Below are positions 570-11,110 of a stretch of 50,082 nucleotides of DNA, piece after piece. The stretch's first letter is position 1; each line of letters begins with the position of its first letter. Where the stretch lies: NCBI GenBank assembly GCA_025062245.1, contig JANXAD010000011.1:1-50082 (forward strand). The letters are read 5' to 3'. The notes under the pieces were generated by a model. It was given only the letters and a program-made list of their open reading frames with translations, did not search any database and was not told the DNA's origin. Made by a program: the position numbers and the translations under genes. Source of the stretch: Thermodesulfobacteriaceae bacterium (GTDB lineage Bacteria > Desulfobacterota > Thermodesulfobacteria > Thermodesulfobacteriales > Thermodesulfobacteriaceae).

Positions 570-2195
570 ATGTTTAAAAATCCTAAGGTTAAAGTAGATA
601 GGGTTTCTTATCAAAAATCTTATAAGCCTTTTTATGAGTTTGATTTAACTCCGGAGCAGTTAGAAAATTATTTAGATGAATATATTATCGGTCAGAAAGA
701 AGCTAAGGCCATCATAGCAACTAAAATTTGCACCCATTTTCATAAGGTTAAAAATTTTCTTTTAAGAGAAGGAAGAGATGAAGTAGTAGGTTTTATAAAA
801 AATAACATTTTTATTATTGGTCCCACGGGAGTGGGTAAAACCTACATGATAAAGCTTATTGCTAAAAAGATTGGAGTTCCCTTTGTAAAAGGAGATGCTA
901 CGAAATTTAGTGAAACAGGCTATGTAGGAGGAGATGTGGAAGACCTGATTAGAGACCTTTATTGGGAGGCAGATGGAGATTTAGAAAAAGCTCGTTTTGG
1001 AATTGTTTATTTGGATGAAATAGATAAAATTGCTTCCTCAGGGGACATAATAGGTCCTGATGTTTCAAGGACAGGGGTTCAGAGAGCTCTCTTAAAACCC
1101 TTAGAAGAAACAGATGTGGAAATTAAAGTTCCTCCAGATGCTTTAAATTTCTTAGAAATTCAAGATCCTCAGGGAAGAGGCAAGAGAAAAAAAATTGTTC
1201 TTAATACTAAATACATAATTTTTGTAGTAAGTGGAGCCTTTCATGGGTTAGAAGAGATCATTAAAAAGAGACTTAATAAACAGAAATTGGGATTTTTATC
1301 GGATATTGAAGGAAGAAAGGATGTAAAATTTAACTATATGAAATTAGTTAGTCCTGAAGACTTAGTAATTTATGGATTTGAAAGAGAATTTGTAGGAAGA
1401 TTCCCAGTAATAGCAGTTTTTGAGGCCTTAACGGAGGATGAACTTTTTAAAATTTTAGCCAATCCTAACAGTCCTATTATGATAAATAAAAAAAGAGATT
1501 TTAAAGTTTATAACATAGATATAGCCTTTACTAATGAGGCTTTGAAAGAAATTGCTAAAATGGCTTTAGAAGAAGGAACAGGTGCCAGAGCCTTAGCCAG
1601 AATCTTAGAAAAAGTTCTTATACCCTTTGAAAGAACCCTACCTTCCCTTTCCCTTAATTACTTAGGAGTAACTTCTGAAATAGTTAATAACCCTTATCAA
1701 GTTTTAAATTCCATAATTAATAATCCTCAGGACCCAAAATGGAGAGAATTTTATTATAAAGCCTTAAAAGAAGAAGAAGAAAGAGTTAAAGAGTATCTTT
1801 ATAATCGTCAAAAGGCCCTTATTAAGGATGTTTCCTTTGAAATTACCTCCGAAAGATTGAAATTCATTTTTGAGCTTTATAAAAAAGAGGATATAGAATT
1901 GTCTCAAGCTTTAGAAGAAATAATCTCTCTTTGGAAACAAATAAAAACCTACGAACAAAGCTTTGAGAGACGAAATCAAATTAGGATCCTTTTTACTGAG
2001 GATGCGATAGATACTATTTTAGAAGAGATTATAAAAACAGATTTTGGAGTCTTTGCCTACTGTGAAAAGGTTATGTCCCGTTTAGAGTATACCTTAAATA
2101 TTATTAAAGAATCTACGGGAAAAAATTTATTTTTTATTCCAGGTTGGGCTTTGAAAAACCCCGAAAAGTTTTTAAACCAGATTTTAGCTCTTTAA
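570..2195 (+). CDS. ClpX-like AAA+ unfoldase without zinc-binding domain
   Basis: This is a 541-residue AAA+ ATPase of the ClpX/HslU group, which unfolds proteins with ATP, usually for the ClpP protease. Visible motifs are the Walker A GPTGVGKT (84-91), the pore loop GYVG (117-120), the Walker B end DEID (149-152), an arginine-finger region with GR at 276-277, and sensor 2 GTGAR (336-340). The tripeptide LGF (240-242) sits where ClpX carries its IGF loop for binding ClpP, so coupling to ClpP is plausible. The N-terminal C4 zinc domain of ClpX is absent, and about 180 residues after sensor 2 are not recognised (ClpX ends soon after this point). It is therefore a ClpX paralogue rather than standard ClpX. 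It leads a five-gene run, with a pseudo-receiver only 15 bases downstream. No clpP is in the window. Confidence 0.85.
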   Translation: MFKNPKVKVDRVSYQKSYKPFYEFDLTPEQLENYLDEYIIGQKEAKAIIATKICTHFHKVKNFLLREGRDEVVGFIKNNIFIIGPTGVGKTYMIKLIAKKIGVPFVKGDATKFSETGYVGGDVEDLIRDLYWEADGDLEKARFGIVYLDEIDKIASSGDIIGPDVSRTGVQRALLKPLEETDVEIKVPPDALNFLEIQDPQGRGKRKKIVLNTKYIIFVVSGAFHGLEEIIKKRLNKQKLGFLSDIEGRKDVKFNYMKLVSPEDLVIYGFEREFVGRFPVIAVFEALTEDELFKILANPNSPIMINKKRDFKVYNIDIAFTNEALKEIAKMALEEGTGARALARILEKVLIPFERTLPSLSLNYLGVTSEIVNNPYQVLNSIINNPQDPKWREFYYKALKEEEERVKEYLYNRQKALIKDVSFEITSERLKFIFELYKKEDIELSQALEEIISLWKQIKTYEQSFERRNQIRILFTEDAIDTILEEIIKTDFGVFAYCEKVMSRLEYTLNIIKESTGKNLFFIPGWALKNPEKFLNQILAL

Positions 2196-2210
2196 AAGGA
2201 TTTAAACCAA

Positions 2211-2573
2211 ATGATATTTTTAGCTCTTTCAGAAGATATTTTTAACAAATTAAAAGAACTTTTAGAAAAAAATAAATTAAAATTTCAGAAAATAGATACA
2301 GGAGATAAACTTTTAAGTTTAGCTAAGAAAGAAAAACCAGATCTTATTATTTTGGAAAAGGATCTTCCTCTTTTAGACGGTTTTGCAGTAACTCTTCTTT
2401 TAAAGTCCGATGCTAAAACTCAAGATATCCCTGTAATTGCGGTTTGTAAGTGTAATTATAAAGAAGAAGAAATAAAAGCTAAGGATTGTGGATCCGATGA
2501 AATTGTAAGATATCCCTTTAAAGATCAGGAAATTATGGAAAAGATTTTAAAGTATCTAAGAAAAAAAAGATGA
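2211..2573 (+). CDS. Single-domain pseudo-receiver (degenerate response regulator)
   Basis: A 120-residue protein consisting of one CheY-like receiver fold and no output domain. The phosphorylation site is altered. The line PDLIILEKDLPLLDG places Glu49 where CheY has its phospho-acceptor Asp (confirmed by Pro at +4 and Asp-Gly at +7). Cys79 replaces the conserved Thr/Ser, and Tyr101 replaces the conserved Lys before Pro-Phe. The N-terminal acidic pair is only partly kept (Ser7, Glu8, Asp9). It probably cannot be phosphorylated normally and may be locked in one state. It lies between the ClpX-like gene and ahbC, overlapping ahbC by 4 bases, so translation is likely coupled. Single-domain receivers such as CpdR act as ClpXP adaptors, which makes that a reasonable guess for its role. 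Confidence 0.8.
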   Translation: MIFLALSEDIFNKLKELLEKNKLKFQKIDTGDKLLSLAKKEKPDLIILEKDLPLLDGFAVTLLLKSDAKTQDIPVIAVCKCNYKEEEIKAKDCGSDEIVRYPFKDQEIMEKILKYLRKKR

Positions 2574-3718
2574 TAAGTATTTCAAGGCTTTATTGTGGAG
2601 TTAAAGAGTTTGCAGAACATTTAAGGTATAGTAAAGAGGCTCACCGAAGACCAGTAGTAGTCTGGAATGTAACTAAGGCTTGTAATTTAAAATGTATTCA
2701 TTGCTATGCCTCTTCAGATTCAAGTCCTTCTTCTGAAGAGTTAACTACCAAGGAGGGTCTTTCACTTTTAGAGGATTTAGCTAAATTTAGAGTCCCTGTA
2801 ATTCTCTTTTCAGGTGGAGAACCTTTAATAAGACCAGACATTTTGGATTTAATTAAAAAAGCTGTAGATCTTAATTTAAGAACGGTAGTTTCTACTAATG
2901 GAACTCTTATAGATTTAAACTTAGCTAAGGAACTTAAAAAACTTGGAGTAAGTTATGTGGGAATAAGCTTAGATGGAGTTGGAGAGGTTCACGATAGATT
3001 TAGAGGAGAGAAGGGAGCCTTTGAAAAAGTTTTAAAAGCTGTTGAAAATTGTTTAAGAGAAAGTTTGAAGGTAGGTTTAAGATTCACTATAAATAGGTTT
3101 AATGTTTTAGAAATTCCTAAACTTTTTGATTTAGTAAAAGAAATGAAAATTCCCAGGCTCTGTTTTTATCACTTAGTTTATACTGGAAGAGGGCGCAATT
3201 TAATAAACCAGGACCTAACTTATGAGGAAAAAAGAAAATGGATGGACTTTATTATAGAAAGCACTAAAAAGCTTCATGAACAAGGATTAAAAACAGAGGT
3301 TTTAACCGTAGATAATCATGCCGATGGTCCCTATCTTTACTTGAAAATGAAAAAAGAGGGAAATCCAAGAGCTGAGGAAGTTTATGAACTTTTAAAATTA
3401 AACGGAGGGAATAAGTCTGGAGTAGGTATTGGTTGTATTTCTTGGGATGGAGCGGTTTTCGCAGATCAGTTCTGGAGGCACTATTCTTTCGGAAATGTAA
3501 GAAAAAGGCCCTTTAGTGAAATATGGATGGACACCTCAGAACCTCTAATGTTTAAACTTAAAAATAAAAAAAGATACCTTAAAGGTAGATGTAGTAAATG
3601 TAGATTTTTAGAGCTTTGCGGAGGCAATTTTAGAGTGCGTGCTGAAGCTGTCTTCGGAGATCTCTGGGCTCCTGACCCTGCTTGTTATTTAACAGAAGAA
3701 GAAATAGGTTTGGTATAA
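2570..3718 (+). CDS. ahbC: Radical SAM enzyme, probable 12,18-didecarboxysiroheme deacetylase (AhbC)
   Basis: A 382-residue radical SAM/SPASM protein. The CxxxCxxC loop is Cys38, Cys42, Cys45 (TKACNLKCIHCYA), followed by the SAM-binding SGGEP motif. C-terminal auxiliary-cluster cysteines are at 289, 341, 344, 350 and 372. The segment GNFRVRAEAVFGDLWAPDP and the ending CYLTEEEIG resemble AhbC, which removes acetate side chains from 12,18-didecarboxysiroheme in the siroheme-dependent heme pathway of sulfate reducers and archaea. NirJ (heme d1) and AhbD are the nearest alternatives; AhbD has a different tail. The start overlaps the end of the pseudo-receiver gene (ATGA), suggesting coupled translation. 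No other ahb gene is in the window. Confidence 0.75.
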   Translation: MISISRLYCGVKEFAEHLRYSKEAHRRPVVVWNVTKACNLKCIHCYASSDSSPSSEELTTKEGLSLLEDLAKFRVPVILFSGGEPLIRPDILDLIKKAVDLNLRTVVSTNGTLIDLNLAKELKKLGVSYVGISLDGVGEVHDRFRGEKGAFEKVLKAVENCLRESLKVGLRFTINRFNVLEIPKLFDLVKEMKIPRLCFYHLVYTGRGRNLINQDLTYEEKRKWMDFIIESTKKLHEQGLKTEVLTVDNHADGPYLYLKMKKEGNPRAEEVYELLKLNGGNKSGVGIGCISWDGAVFADQFWRHYSFGNVRKRPFSEIWMDTSEPLMFKLKNKKRYLKGRCSKCRFLELCGGNFRVRAEAVFGDLWAPDPACYLTEEEIGLV

Positions 3719-6716: not shown

Positions 6717-7513
6717 TAGGGTATCCAGTGGGACATTCTCTTTCTCCCTTAATGCATAATTTAGCCTTTAGAGAACTTATGCTGAAAGCTGTTTATGGAG
6801 CCTTTGAAGTTAAGCCTAAGGATTTAGAAGTGGCTATTAAAGGAGTAAAAGCTTTAAATATTAAAGGGCTTTCGGTTACCGTGCCTCATAAGGAAGAAGT
6901 AATTAAATTCTTAGATGAAGTAGAAGACAAGGCCTTAGAAATCGGAGCAGTGAATACTATTTTAAATGAAGAGGGAAAACTTAAAGGTTTTAATACCGAT
7001 TGGATAGGATTTTTAAAGGCTTTAGAGGAAGAAGGAATTGAGGTAAAAAATAAAAAGGTGGTTATTTTAGGAGCAGGAGGGGCTTCTAAAGCTGTTGTCT
7101 ATGCAGTAAAGATGGCTCAAGCTTGCGAGATAGAAATTTTTAATCGAACCTATGAAAAAGCCTTAGAGTTAGCTCAAAAGTTCGGAATTAAAGCTAAACC
7201 ATGGGAAGATTTAAAAGAAGCTTTTGGAGATCTTATAATTCAGACTACCAGTGTGGGACTTAACTCTTGGGAAAGTCCTGTAGAGGAAGAAGTTTTAACT
7301 CGATTCAAAGTAGCCTTCGATTTGGTATATACTCCGTTAAAAACTAAGTTTTTGAGTTTAGCTGAAAAGGTAGGTTGTGTAGCCATTGATGGACTAAAGA
7401 TGCTTCTTTATCAAGGAGTTGAGCAGCTTAAAATTTGGACCAAAAAGGAACTTCCTCTAAATCTAATAAACTTAATAAAAGAGACTCTTTATAAAGAAGT
7501 TTCCCAAAGATAA
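6695..7513 (+). CDS. aroE: Shikimate dehydrogenase
   Basis: A 272-residue NADP-dependent enzyme reducing 3-dehydroshikimate to shikimate. The N-terminal substrate domain carries GYPVGHSLSPLMHN (9-22), catalytic Lys66 in VTVPHKE, Asn87 in AVNT and Asp102 in NTDWIGF. The nucleotide-binding loop GAGGASK is at 126-132, and the C-terminal DGLKMLLYQG motif is present. Length is normal for the family. The ATG lies inside the end of aroD (22-base overlap), and aroA follows 11 bases later, so the three are very likely co-transcribed and translationally linked. Confidence 0.95.
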   Translation: MYEVYGVIGYPVGHSLSPLMHNLAFRELMLKAVYGAFEVKPKDLEVAIKGVKALNIKGLSVTVPHKEEVIKFLDEVEDKALEIGAVNTILNEEGKLKGFNTDWIGFLKALEEEGIEVKNKKVVILGAGGASKAVVYAVKMAQACEIEIFNRTYEKALELAQKFGIKAKPWEDLKEAFGDLIIQTTSVGLNSWESPVEEEVLTRFKVAFDLVYTPLKTKFLSLAEKVGCVAIDGLKMLLYQGVEQLKIWTKKELPLNLINLIKETLYKEVSQR

Positions 7514-9811: not shown

Positions 9812-11110
9812 TCACTCTTTATGGGGTTTTACCTTTAAAGTAAAGCCCCTTTTTTCAATTACTTTTATTTGTTCTCCCTTAGGGATGGTTTCATCAGAGA
9901 TAGCTTCCCAGATTTCTCCTTCCACAAAAATTTTCCCTTTATGGGGAGAAATTTCTTCTAAAGCCTTTCCAACCTTTCCTACCAGAGCCTCTCCTCCTGA
10001 AACAGGTTTTTTCCTGAGAACTCTAACTGCCAAATAGGTAATTCCAGCAAAAATTATGGAAAAGGTAATAACTACTGTATAAAGAAAGGGTTGATAAACC
10101 TTTAAAGGAGGAGGATTTTTACCAAAAAGAATAATAGAACCTAAAAGAAGAGACACTGTTCCTGCTAAGGTAAGAAGTCCGTGGGAGGCAATCTGAGTTT
10201 CTAAAAAGAACAAAAGTCCTGCTAAAAGAATGAGAGCCAGTCCTGCATAATTTAAAGGTAAAATACTTAAGCCTAAAAAAGCCAGAATTAAACAAATGGC
10301 TCCAATTACACCCGGAAAAATACTTCCTGGATGGGAAAGTTCAAAGTAAATTCCAGCAAGTCCCAGCATTAACAAAAAATAAATAAGATTGGGATTAGTC
10401 AAAACTTTTAAAAATTTAGTTTTAAAATCTTCTTCAATAATCTCAACTTTAGAATTTTTGGTAAATATATTTACTTTTTGATGGTTTATCATAACAGTTT
10501 TTCCATCTATTTCTTTTAGAAGTTCGTCAAAATCCTTAGCGATAAGCTCAATGACTTTTAATTCCAGAGCCTCCTTTTCGGTAATACTTTTGCTTTTTAA
10601 AACAGCCTCTTCTATAAATTTAGGATTTCTGTTTCGCATTTGAGCTAAGTTTTTGCCCCAAGCTACCAGGTCTTGAGAAATTTTTTCCAGCACCTTTTCA
10701 TCTGCCTTACCTGTTAGTTCTACAGGATGGGCTGCTCCTACATGAGTTCCTGGAGCCATAGCTGCTAAATGGGAGGCTATTAAAATAAAAGTACCTGCTG
10801 AGGCAGCCCTGGCTCCAGAGGGACTTATATAAACTACTACCGGAATCTTACTTCTTAACATCTCCTTTACAATTTCTCGAGTAGATTCTACTAATCCCCC
10901 AGGGGTATCAAGCTCCACAATCAAAGCCTGAGCTTGCTTTTCTTCTGAAAGATTAATACAGTAAGCTAAAAAATTAGCTATCACCGGAGTGATAGCCCCT
11001 TCAATTCTAACCCTAAAAATTATTCTCTCTTCAGCAAAACTATTAGAAACCGAATGAAAAATTAAAAATAAAAAAAATAAACTGCTAAGAGTTTTTAAAA
11101 ATTTCTTCAT
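9812..11110 (-). CDS. nfeD: NfeD family membrane serine protease (ClpP-class)
   Basis: A 432-residue membrane protein of the long NfeD (1b) type. It has a signal peptide or first membrane segment (about 6-26). A ClpP-like protease domain follows, with GAGG-like motif DTPGGLVES, the nucleophile Ser104 in RAASAGTF and a candidate catalytic Lys at 139 or 143. Several membrane helices lie around 240-370, and a C-terminal OB-fold NfeD domain ends the protein. Archaeal homologues cleave stomatin. No stomatin gene is adjacent, which is unusual because the two are often paired. The start overlaps the upstream uracil-DNA glycosylase-like gene by 26 bases. Confidence 0.9.
   Translation of the reverse strand: MKKFLKTLSSLFFLFLIFHSVSNSFAEERIIFRVRIEGAITPVIANFLAYCINLSEEKQAQALIVELDTPGGLVESTREIVKEMLRSKIPVVVYISPSGARAASAGTFILIASHLAAMAPGTHVGAAHPVELTGKADEKVLEKISQDLVAWGKNLAQMRNRNPKFIEEAVLKSKSITEKEALELKVIELIAKDFDELLKEIDGKTVMINHQKVNIFTKNSKVEIIEEDFKTKFLKVLTNPNLIYFLLMLGLAGIYFELSHPGSIFPGVIGAICLILAFLGLSILPLNYAGLALILLAGLLFFLETQIASHGLLTLAGTVSLLLGSIILFGKNPPPLKVYQPFLYTVVITFSIIFAGITYLAVRVLRKKPVSGGEALVGKVGKALEEISPHKGKIFVEGEIWEAISDETIPKGEQIKVIEKRGFTLKVKPHKE

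Follow-up and report, generated by a model that had tools for sequence, protein, structure and literature searches.

A ClpX-paralogous AAA+ unfoldase with a second lid domain, and a non-phosphorylatable receiver encoded beside it, next to an AhbC-like heme-pathway gene

How could a ClpX-type unfoldase select its substrates when the zinc-binding domain, on which adaptors normally dock, is missing, and what could be the role of a neighbouring receiver domain that cannot be phosphorylated? This question is raised by a locus at the start of a 50,082-nucleotide stretch of DNA from a Thermodesulfobacteriaceae bacterium, referred to here as the window. A first-pass annotation had read two genes of this locus as an unfoldase with a possible dedicated, signal-independent adaptor. 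The observation behind this reading is confirmed by the present analysis, and the interpretation is partly supported: the pairing of the two genes is constant, and what had been left out are a duplicated lid domain, the AhbC-like heme gene next to the pair and a wider unfoldase family having other partners.

Organization of the locus

The genes for the 541-residue AAA+ protein and the 120-residue receiver are on the same strand, with the receiver gene starting 15 bases 3' of the unfoldase gene, as first annotated. The features of the locus are as follows.

570..2195, + strand: gene for the ClpX-paralogous AAA+ unfoldase, 541 residues, zinc-binding domain absent, with a C-terminal second lid domain (open reading frame list, profile matches, model)
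2196..2200, + strand: AAGGA, resembling a ribosome-binding site, 5' of the receiver gene (sequence inspection)
2211..2573, + strand: gene for the single-domain pseudo-receiver, 120 residues (Response_reg match, model, alignment)
2570..3718, + strand: AhbC-like radical SAM gene (12,18-didecarboxysiroheme deacetylase, heme pathway; TIGR04546, 2.2e-180)

The receiver gene and the AhbC-like gene share 4 bases (ATGA), and the latter is followed by a formyltransferase-like gene, beyond which there are frames named as PurH-type and aromatic-pathway genes by their look and order. The AhbC-like protein scores 599.6 bits with TIGR04546, which is below the 650-bit equivalog cut-off; the AhbC of genome G004 is also below it (638.5 bits), and this search gave scores above it for four further f1/f3 genomes. 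The window starts at a contig end, and the upstream side of this genome is thus cut at the contig edge. In the two relatives that were tested (L063 and L043) the gene upstream of the unfoldase is PriA, and in many other relatives frames of similar size, judged by size alone, are found at this place.

The comparisons described below use a set of 41 genomes of families f1–f3, being the genome of the window and 40 relatives, and a sample of 148 genomes from the phylum of the window; many genomes are in fragmentary form. Five close relatives found in a contig scan are metagenome assemblies, three of them labelled as Thermodesulfobacterium or Caldimicrobium and two as Thermodesulfobacteriota.

The unfoldase has an intact ClpX-type core

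Residues 26–374 of the unfoldase match two ClpX models (1e-91 and 1.2e-84), and the scores are below both curated ClpX equivalog cut-offs (307.9 versus 359 bits and 284.7 versus 370.75 bits). These alignments begin at model position 60 or 68, from which it follows that the N-terminal zinc domain is absent. This agrees with the motif analysis of 96 full unfoldase orthologue sequences, of which 0/96 have a double-CxxC (CxxC...CxxC) zinc motif close to the N-terminus, versus 16/20 canonical ClpX sequences; the four ClpX sequences lacking it are truncated (L145, L146, L148) or in the wrong frame (L152). When the model of the unfoldase is used for a structure search, all 50 matches listed are ClpX entries, with about 350–365 aligned columns. 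An HslU identity is rejected (169.4 bits versus the HslU cut-off of 362.45), and so is a decaying gene, since the frame is open and conserved in relatives.

An ordinary ClpX is encoded on another contig of the genome, where its gene adjoins the only strong ClpP match; the unfoldase is 42% identical to this ClpX over the core. The presence of a separate ordinary ClpX beside ClpP identifies the 570–2195 unfoldase as a ClpX paralogue. Two weaker ClpP-family matches in the genome are also above the Pfam cut-off, and a related frame on contig C20, matched in pieces, is taken for HslU.

The motifs of the core, with their conservation among the 96 orthologues, are as follows.

819..842, + strand: Walker A GPTGVGKT, residues 84–91 (G84, P85, G87, G89, K90 and T91 in 96/96; T86 and V88 in 95/96)
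918..929, + strand: pore-1 loop GYVG, residues 117–120 (96/96)
1002..1019, + strand: Walker B region ending in D149-E150 (D and E in 96/96)
1287..1295, + strand: LGF, the IGF-type (ClpP-docking) loop, residues 240–242 (GF in 96/96; aligned with the loop of ClpX chains)
1398..1400, + strand: Arg277 of the arginine-finger motif GR(F/L)PV (96/96)
1578..1589, + strand: sensor-2 TGAR, residues 337–340 (96/96)

Residue 240, the first of the IGF-type loop, is I in 46, L in 33, M in 14 and V in 3 orthologues. The roles of Arg277 as arginine finger and of TGAR as sensor-2 are presumed from ClpX. The near-invariance of the Walker, GYVG, GF, arginine and TGAR residues indicates that the unfoldase family is in all likelihood a working AAA+ motor, and the motor together with the GF loop points to ATP-driven unfolding, likely with docking on ClpP. 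The unfoldase would then form a ring and use the ClpP of the genome. The pore loop, the LGF and the missing zinc domain had all been noticed in the initial annotation; GYVG, GF and the lack of the zinc motif hold across the 96 orthologues.

A degenerate copy of the lid domain is added at the C-terminus

The part of the unfoldase past approximately residue 385 has no ClpX counterpart. It can be divided, together with the preceding small domain, in the following way.

1470..1733, + strand: first AAA+ small (lid) domain, approximately residues 301–388 (Pfam ClpB_D2-small; model)
1734..1976, + strand: helical linker, approximately residues 389–469 (model)
1977..2192, + strand: second, degenerate copy of the lid domain without TGAR, approximately residues 470–541 (hhalign, model)

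In the AlphaFold model (mean pLDDT 81, pTM 0.77) the strand-helix order of the lid domain appears twice, at approximately residues 315–384 and 470–540, and an hhalign comparison of the two lid stretches gives a probability of 98.2 (E 5.6e-14). The repeated order of strands and helices and the profile match show that a second, degenerate lid, without the TGAR arginine, has been added. Compared with canonical bacterial ClpX, the AAA+ core is thus alike, including GYVG, the GF of the ClpP loop and the Walker, arginine-finger and sensor-2 residues, whereas the zinc domain is absent, the RKH stretch is not retained and the linker and second lid domain are extra.

Distribution and phylogeny of the unfoldase family

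With a profile of the unfoldase family a member is found in 68 of the 148 genomes of the phylum sample, at 656–934 bits, versus 340–355 bits for ClpX itself, which reaches the limit in six genomes. A quick tree was calculated from 73 unfoldase-family rows and 17 ClpX rows, with SH-aLRT support and without bootstrap or mixture model; the ClpX sequences L145, L146 and L148 are too short and are omitted, and the wrong-frame L152 is retained as a long branch. Also outside the tree are L091, which lies at a contig end and is counted as "other" among the neighbours, and the unfoldase of L093 (genome G085), which is interrupted by one stop and present as fragments only; the latter is included in the neighbour counts and is not one of the 96 sequences.

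The unfoldase family is separate from ClpX in this tree with SH-aLRT 84, the split being disturbed by the wrong-frame row. All 16 receiver-bearing unfoldases of the tree (12 of the f1–f3 type and 4 followed by HemB) form one clade (SH-aLRT 95) with two members, L084 and L134, which do not have a receiver beside the unfoldase. Another clade, of 22 tree rows (SH-aLRT 99), consists of all 18 loci that adjoin DnaJ and four others. The proposal that the docking domain was lost in step with the gain of a receiver is not borne out, because the zinc domain is absent also from the members without a receiver.

The receiver has lost its phosphorylation site

The 120-residue protein matches Response_reg (2.6e-13), and its model has the (beta-alpha)5 fold of receivers (pLDDT 93), in agreement with the structure matches. 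The alignment comprises 42 orthologues, of which 38 are from f1–f3 and four from f50, f57, f63 and f67.

2355..2357, + strand: codon of Glu49, at the position of the phospho-acceptor Asp (column: E 37, R 3, S 1, Y 1 of 42)

The phospho-acceptor Asp is found in 0/42 orthologues and the Lys of the Lys column also in 0/42; the Thr column has C in 40, F in 1 and S in 1. The first reading of this receiver as non-phosphorylatable is therefore correct for the whole orthologue group, and the loss of the site in all orthologues means that the dead state is conserved and is not a recent decay. Among these orthologues alone, mean conservation per element peaks at beta3, alpha3 and the loop that follows beta3, and the beta4-alpha4 loop, beta2 and beta5 are the least conserved.

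The same fold is seen in the receiver of FrzS (entry 2i6f), which we take to be a pseudo-receiver, and in entry 2jb9, one of the structure matches, which is titled as constitutively active D10A/D53E PhoB and has a Glu at the same site. Glu in this position can imitate the phosphate. Unlike in such Asp-to-Glu receivers, the site has R, S or Y in 5/42 of the orthologues, and Glu49 is accordingly rejected as a general phosphate mimic. We know of no ClpX-type partner for the FrzS and mutant PhoB receivers.

The receiver gene is paired with the unfoldase gene

The co-occurrence of the two genes in related genomes, which the first-pass annotation had proposed as a check, is indeed constant. The unfoldase is matched in 38 of the 41 f1–f3 genomes, and in all 38 the receiver gene is directly next to it, followed by AhbC. 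In a 39th genome (G011) the end of the unfoldase lies at the contig edge and is followed by the receiver and AhbC, so that the pair is present in 39/41. As for the other two, no unfoldase, receiver or AhbC is found at comparable scores in G015, a 64%-complete genome, and in G037 the AhbC gene begins at base 1 of its contig. Outside this set, the phylum sample has 62 other genomes with the unfoldase, of which four, from four further families (f50, f57, f63 and f67), have an adjoining receiver, in these cases followed by HemB.

The converse search leads to the same loci. A receiver profile has 10 matches in the 148 genomes at E<=1e-24, and nine of these adjoin the unfoldase; the tenth (G167) is in a 939-residue frame away from the unfoldase. 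The receiver of the fourth HemB-type genome (G184) scores 4.4e-17 and is reached only at a laxer limit, which admits many ordinary receivers. Chance neighbourhood of the two genes is rejected on these counts, and the recurring pair and the nine of ten profile matches make it likely that the unfoldase and the receiver are partners. Such a partnership must work without phosphorylation at the usual site; it would involve physical contact between the two proteins.

Distance correlations across 29 genomes do not single out either neighbour of the receiver: the value is 0.75 with the unfoldase, 0.77 with the control PurH and 0.16 with AhbC, and the partial distance correlation is lower with the unfoldase (0.34) than with PurH (0.52). 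A displaced dead receiver was considered and rejected (L134, G175), as the best receiver match elsewhere in the genome is one of the ordinary kind that retains its Asp.

Heme genes and other neighbours of the unfoldase

The names of the neighbours rest on blastp comparisons with a few seed proteins, and curated models confirm L048 (HemB, AhbD), L049 and L052 (DnaJ). In 39/68 of the unfoldase genomes the next gene on the same strand, either immediately or beyond one small gene, belongs to the heme pathway (AhbC or HemB), and in 29/68 the unfoldase is not beside a heme gene. AhbC is next in 33/68 (in 26 directly, in 6 after a receiver and in 1 after an FKBP isomerase), HemB in 6/68 (in 4 of these after a receiver) and DnaJ in 18/68; in the remaining 11/68 the neighbour is something else or the contig ends. 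AhbC, HemB and AhbD follow the unfoldase in succession at several loci, for example L047, L048, L085, L087 and L088, of which L048 was checked with models.

AhbC matches at E<=1e-90 are found in 84 genomes of the phylum sample, 68 of them over the TIGR04546 cut-off. The unfoldase is present in 49/84 genomes with AhbC versus 19/64 without (Fisher p 0.0008, uncorrected for kinship). AhbC genomes without the unfoldase (35/84) and unfoldase genomes without an AhbC match (19/68) show that the family is neither needed for AhbC nor confined to AhbC. At the same E<=1e-90 limit, an AhbC match is found in 0/6 of the HemB-adjacent genomes.

In family f10, L052 (6172–11607) and, with the same layout, L092, L107, L121 and L132 have a row of unfoldase, DnaJ and a frame of 827–853 residues; in L052 this frame is a LonB/LonC-like protease. 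The FKBP isomerase between unfoldase and AhbC is at 6972–7451 of L120, and a SurA/PpiC-type isomerase is downstream of the unfoldase in L089 (6876–8744). The changing neighbour of the unfoldase fits the adaptor idea and also fits general proteostasis.

Possible function of the unfoldase and the receiver

The ClpX fold with catalytic residues that are intact, the loss of the phosphosite as a conserved state, the constant pairing and the heme-gene neighbourhood are the observations on which a mechanism can be built. Tentatively, we favour a ClpX-type unfoldase whose field is heme biosynthesis or its surroundings and which would have the dead receiver for a constitutive adaptor. The ATP-driven, ring-shaped unfoldase would probably dock on the ClpP of the genome, and its choice of substrates may be its own, as it lacks the zinc domain and has an additional lid domain and, at the place of the RKH loop, a different stretch. 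In the simplest reading, the receiver is a permanent module for binding the unfoldase; it would dock there independently of phosphorylation and bring the substrate, thereby acting as an adaptor. The heme genes are our best guess at the field of action, and the substrates may be AhbC, HemB or another enzyme of heme biosynthesis, or proteins close to this route, so that unfoldase and receiver would degrade or remodel heme enzymes. Counting against this reading are the 29/68 unfoldase genes away from heme genes, the frequent occurrence of unfoldase or AhbC without the other, the two members of the receiver clade that have no receiver (L084 and L134), the distance correlations and, in f1–f3, the unrelated purine and aromatic genes further along the row.

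The heme-gene neighbourhood can also be accommodated without proteolysis, and it is possible, if doubtful, that the paralogue is a remodelling chaperone for the partial unfolding or the maturation of a heme enzyme, such as the insertion of the cofactor or cluster of AhbC, being positioned by the receiver and working without ClpP. A precedent is mitochondrial ClpX, which, according to excerpts of PMC7077987, activates ALAS, the first heme enzyme, by a partial unfolding that opens it for its cofactor. Chaperone-type neighbours elsewhere in the family (DnaJ, the FKBP isomerase in L120 and the SurA-type isomerase in L089) are in line with such a role; however, 96/96 orthologues retain the GF of the ClpP loop, which would be superfluous without ClpP.

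The DnaJ neighbours, found in 18/68 genomes and inside one clade of 22 tree rows, and the additional LonB/LonC-like protease in L052 suggest a further reading, in which the unfoldase serves general proteostasis, the row with the heme gene is inherited without functional meaning and the receiver, as a subunit, stabilises or regulates the unfoldase. In f1–f3 the heme gene is moreover followed in the same row by unrelated purine and aromatic genes. This reading is unlikely, since the association with heme genes persists where HemB replaces AhbC, in genomes that have no AhbC match.

It is improbable that the receiver belongs to the heme enzyme, as a scaffold or regulator of AhbC or HemB that merely sits between both genes. 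The 4-base overlap of the receiver gene with AhbC in the window and receiver distances that follow neither partner specifically would be explained in this way, but the unfoldase is directly before AhbC in 26 genomes that have no receiver there, the unfoldase is kept where the gene after the receiver is HemB instead of AhbC, and the distance correlation with AhbC is very low. Least probable is an anti-adaptor or inhibitor role, in which the dead receiver blocks or gates the unfoldase instead of delivering substrate; the gene pairing speaks for inhibition as much as for delivery.

Returning to the constitutive adaptor, a more far-reaching version can be formulated, which we regard as speculative and rather unlikely as a whole: a bacterial ClpX paralogue with doubled lid, dedicated to the siroheme-dependent heme pathway and fed by a constitutive pseudo-receiver adaptor, would be the bacterial counterpart of mitochondrial ClpX-ALAS, and its lineages would have exchanged the partner that is encoded at one gene position, be it a receiver, a J-protein or an FKBP isomerase. 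If this holds, control of heme synthesis of the ClpX type, as known from mitochondria, would exist in bacteria as well, with an unfoldase of its own and an adaptor that has no switch, and a receiver domain would have been retained for a long time purely as an unfoldase-binding module. The two small genes offer a clear binding test.

Comparison with known systems

CpdR of Caulobacter is a lone receiver that is controlled by phosphorylation and docks on the N-terminal domain of ClpX. The present pair is similar in having a lone receiver with a ClpX-type unfoldase, and different in that the phosphorylation site and the ClpX N-terminal domain are both absent. CpdR is also named as a ClpX adaptor in excerpts of PMC8138137. 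RssB is, as described in excerpts of PMC7226468, a receiver-containing ClpXP adaptor of two domains with its phosphorylation site at Asp58, and its C-terminal domain, not the receiver, docks on the zinc domain of ClpX, which the unfoldase does not have. The analogy with RssB that had been drawn at first is thus a loose one: it holds for a receiver protein as ClpX adaptor and fails for the mode of docking (PMC7226468, excerpts). The mitochondrial ClpX that acts on ALAS is alike as a ClpX-type unfoldase tied to heme synthesis, whereas the tie here is one of gene order, to AhbC or HemB.

Searches of open-access full text returned nothing joining ClpX with AhbC, and nothing joining any three of ClpX, radical SAM, siroheme, AAA ATPase and Desulfobacterota. 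In the same text, ClpX with pseudo-receiver and adaptor gave only c-di-GMP work, by title, and Thermodesulfobacterium with ClpX only work on the root of the tree of life. No title on this unfoldase family is among the matches listed for open-access literature on ClpX paralogues, homologues or ClpX-like proteins, and the family is in no title among the matches listed for heme and ClpX, the Ahb route, CpdR/RssB and tetrapyrrole proteolysis.

Additional observations

At 300–430 of the window, just upstream of the unfoldase and near the contig end, there is, by eye, the apparent end of a broken transposase frame. In its place L062, a relative with 90% identity, has a 652-residue frame, cut by the contig start, which ends approximately 70 bases before the unfoldase. 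Further along the window, 10604–11050 on the - strand codes for an NfeD1b N-terminal domain (1.6e-21), which also matches the ClpP family weakly.

Two f40 genomes have a cysteine-rich frame of 67–73 residues that overlaps the unfoldase by 17 bases (L089, 6652–6870; L130, 4762–4962). From its weak matches, which are below cut-offs, this frame is a possible detached zinc-ribbon partner. A frame of approximately 420–447 residues, resembling a membrane transporter by eye, is located after HemB in L084, L099, L126 and L136 and recurs in HemB-type loci.
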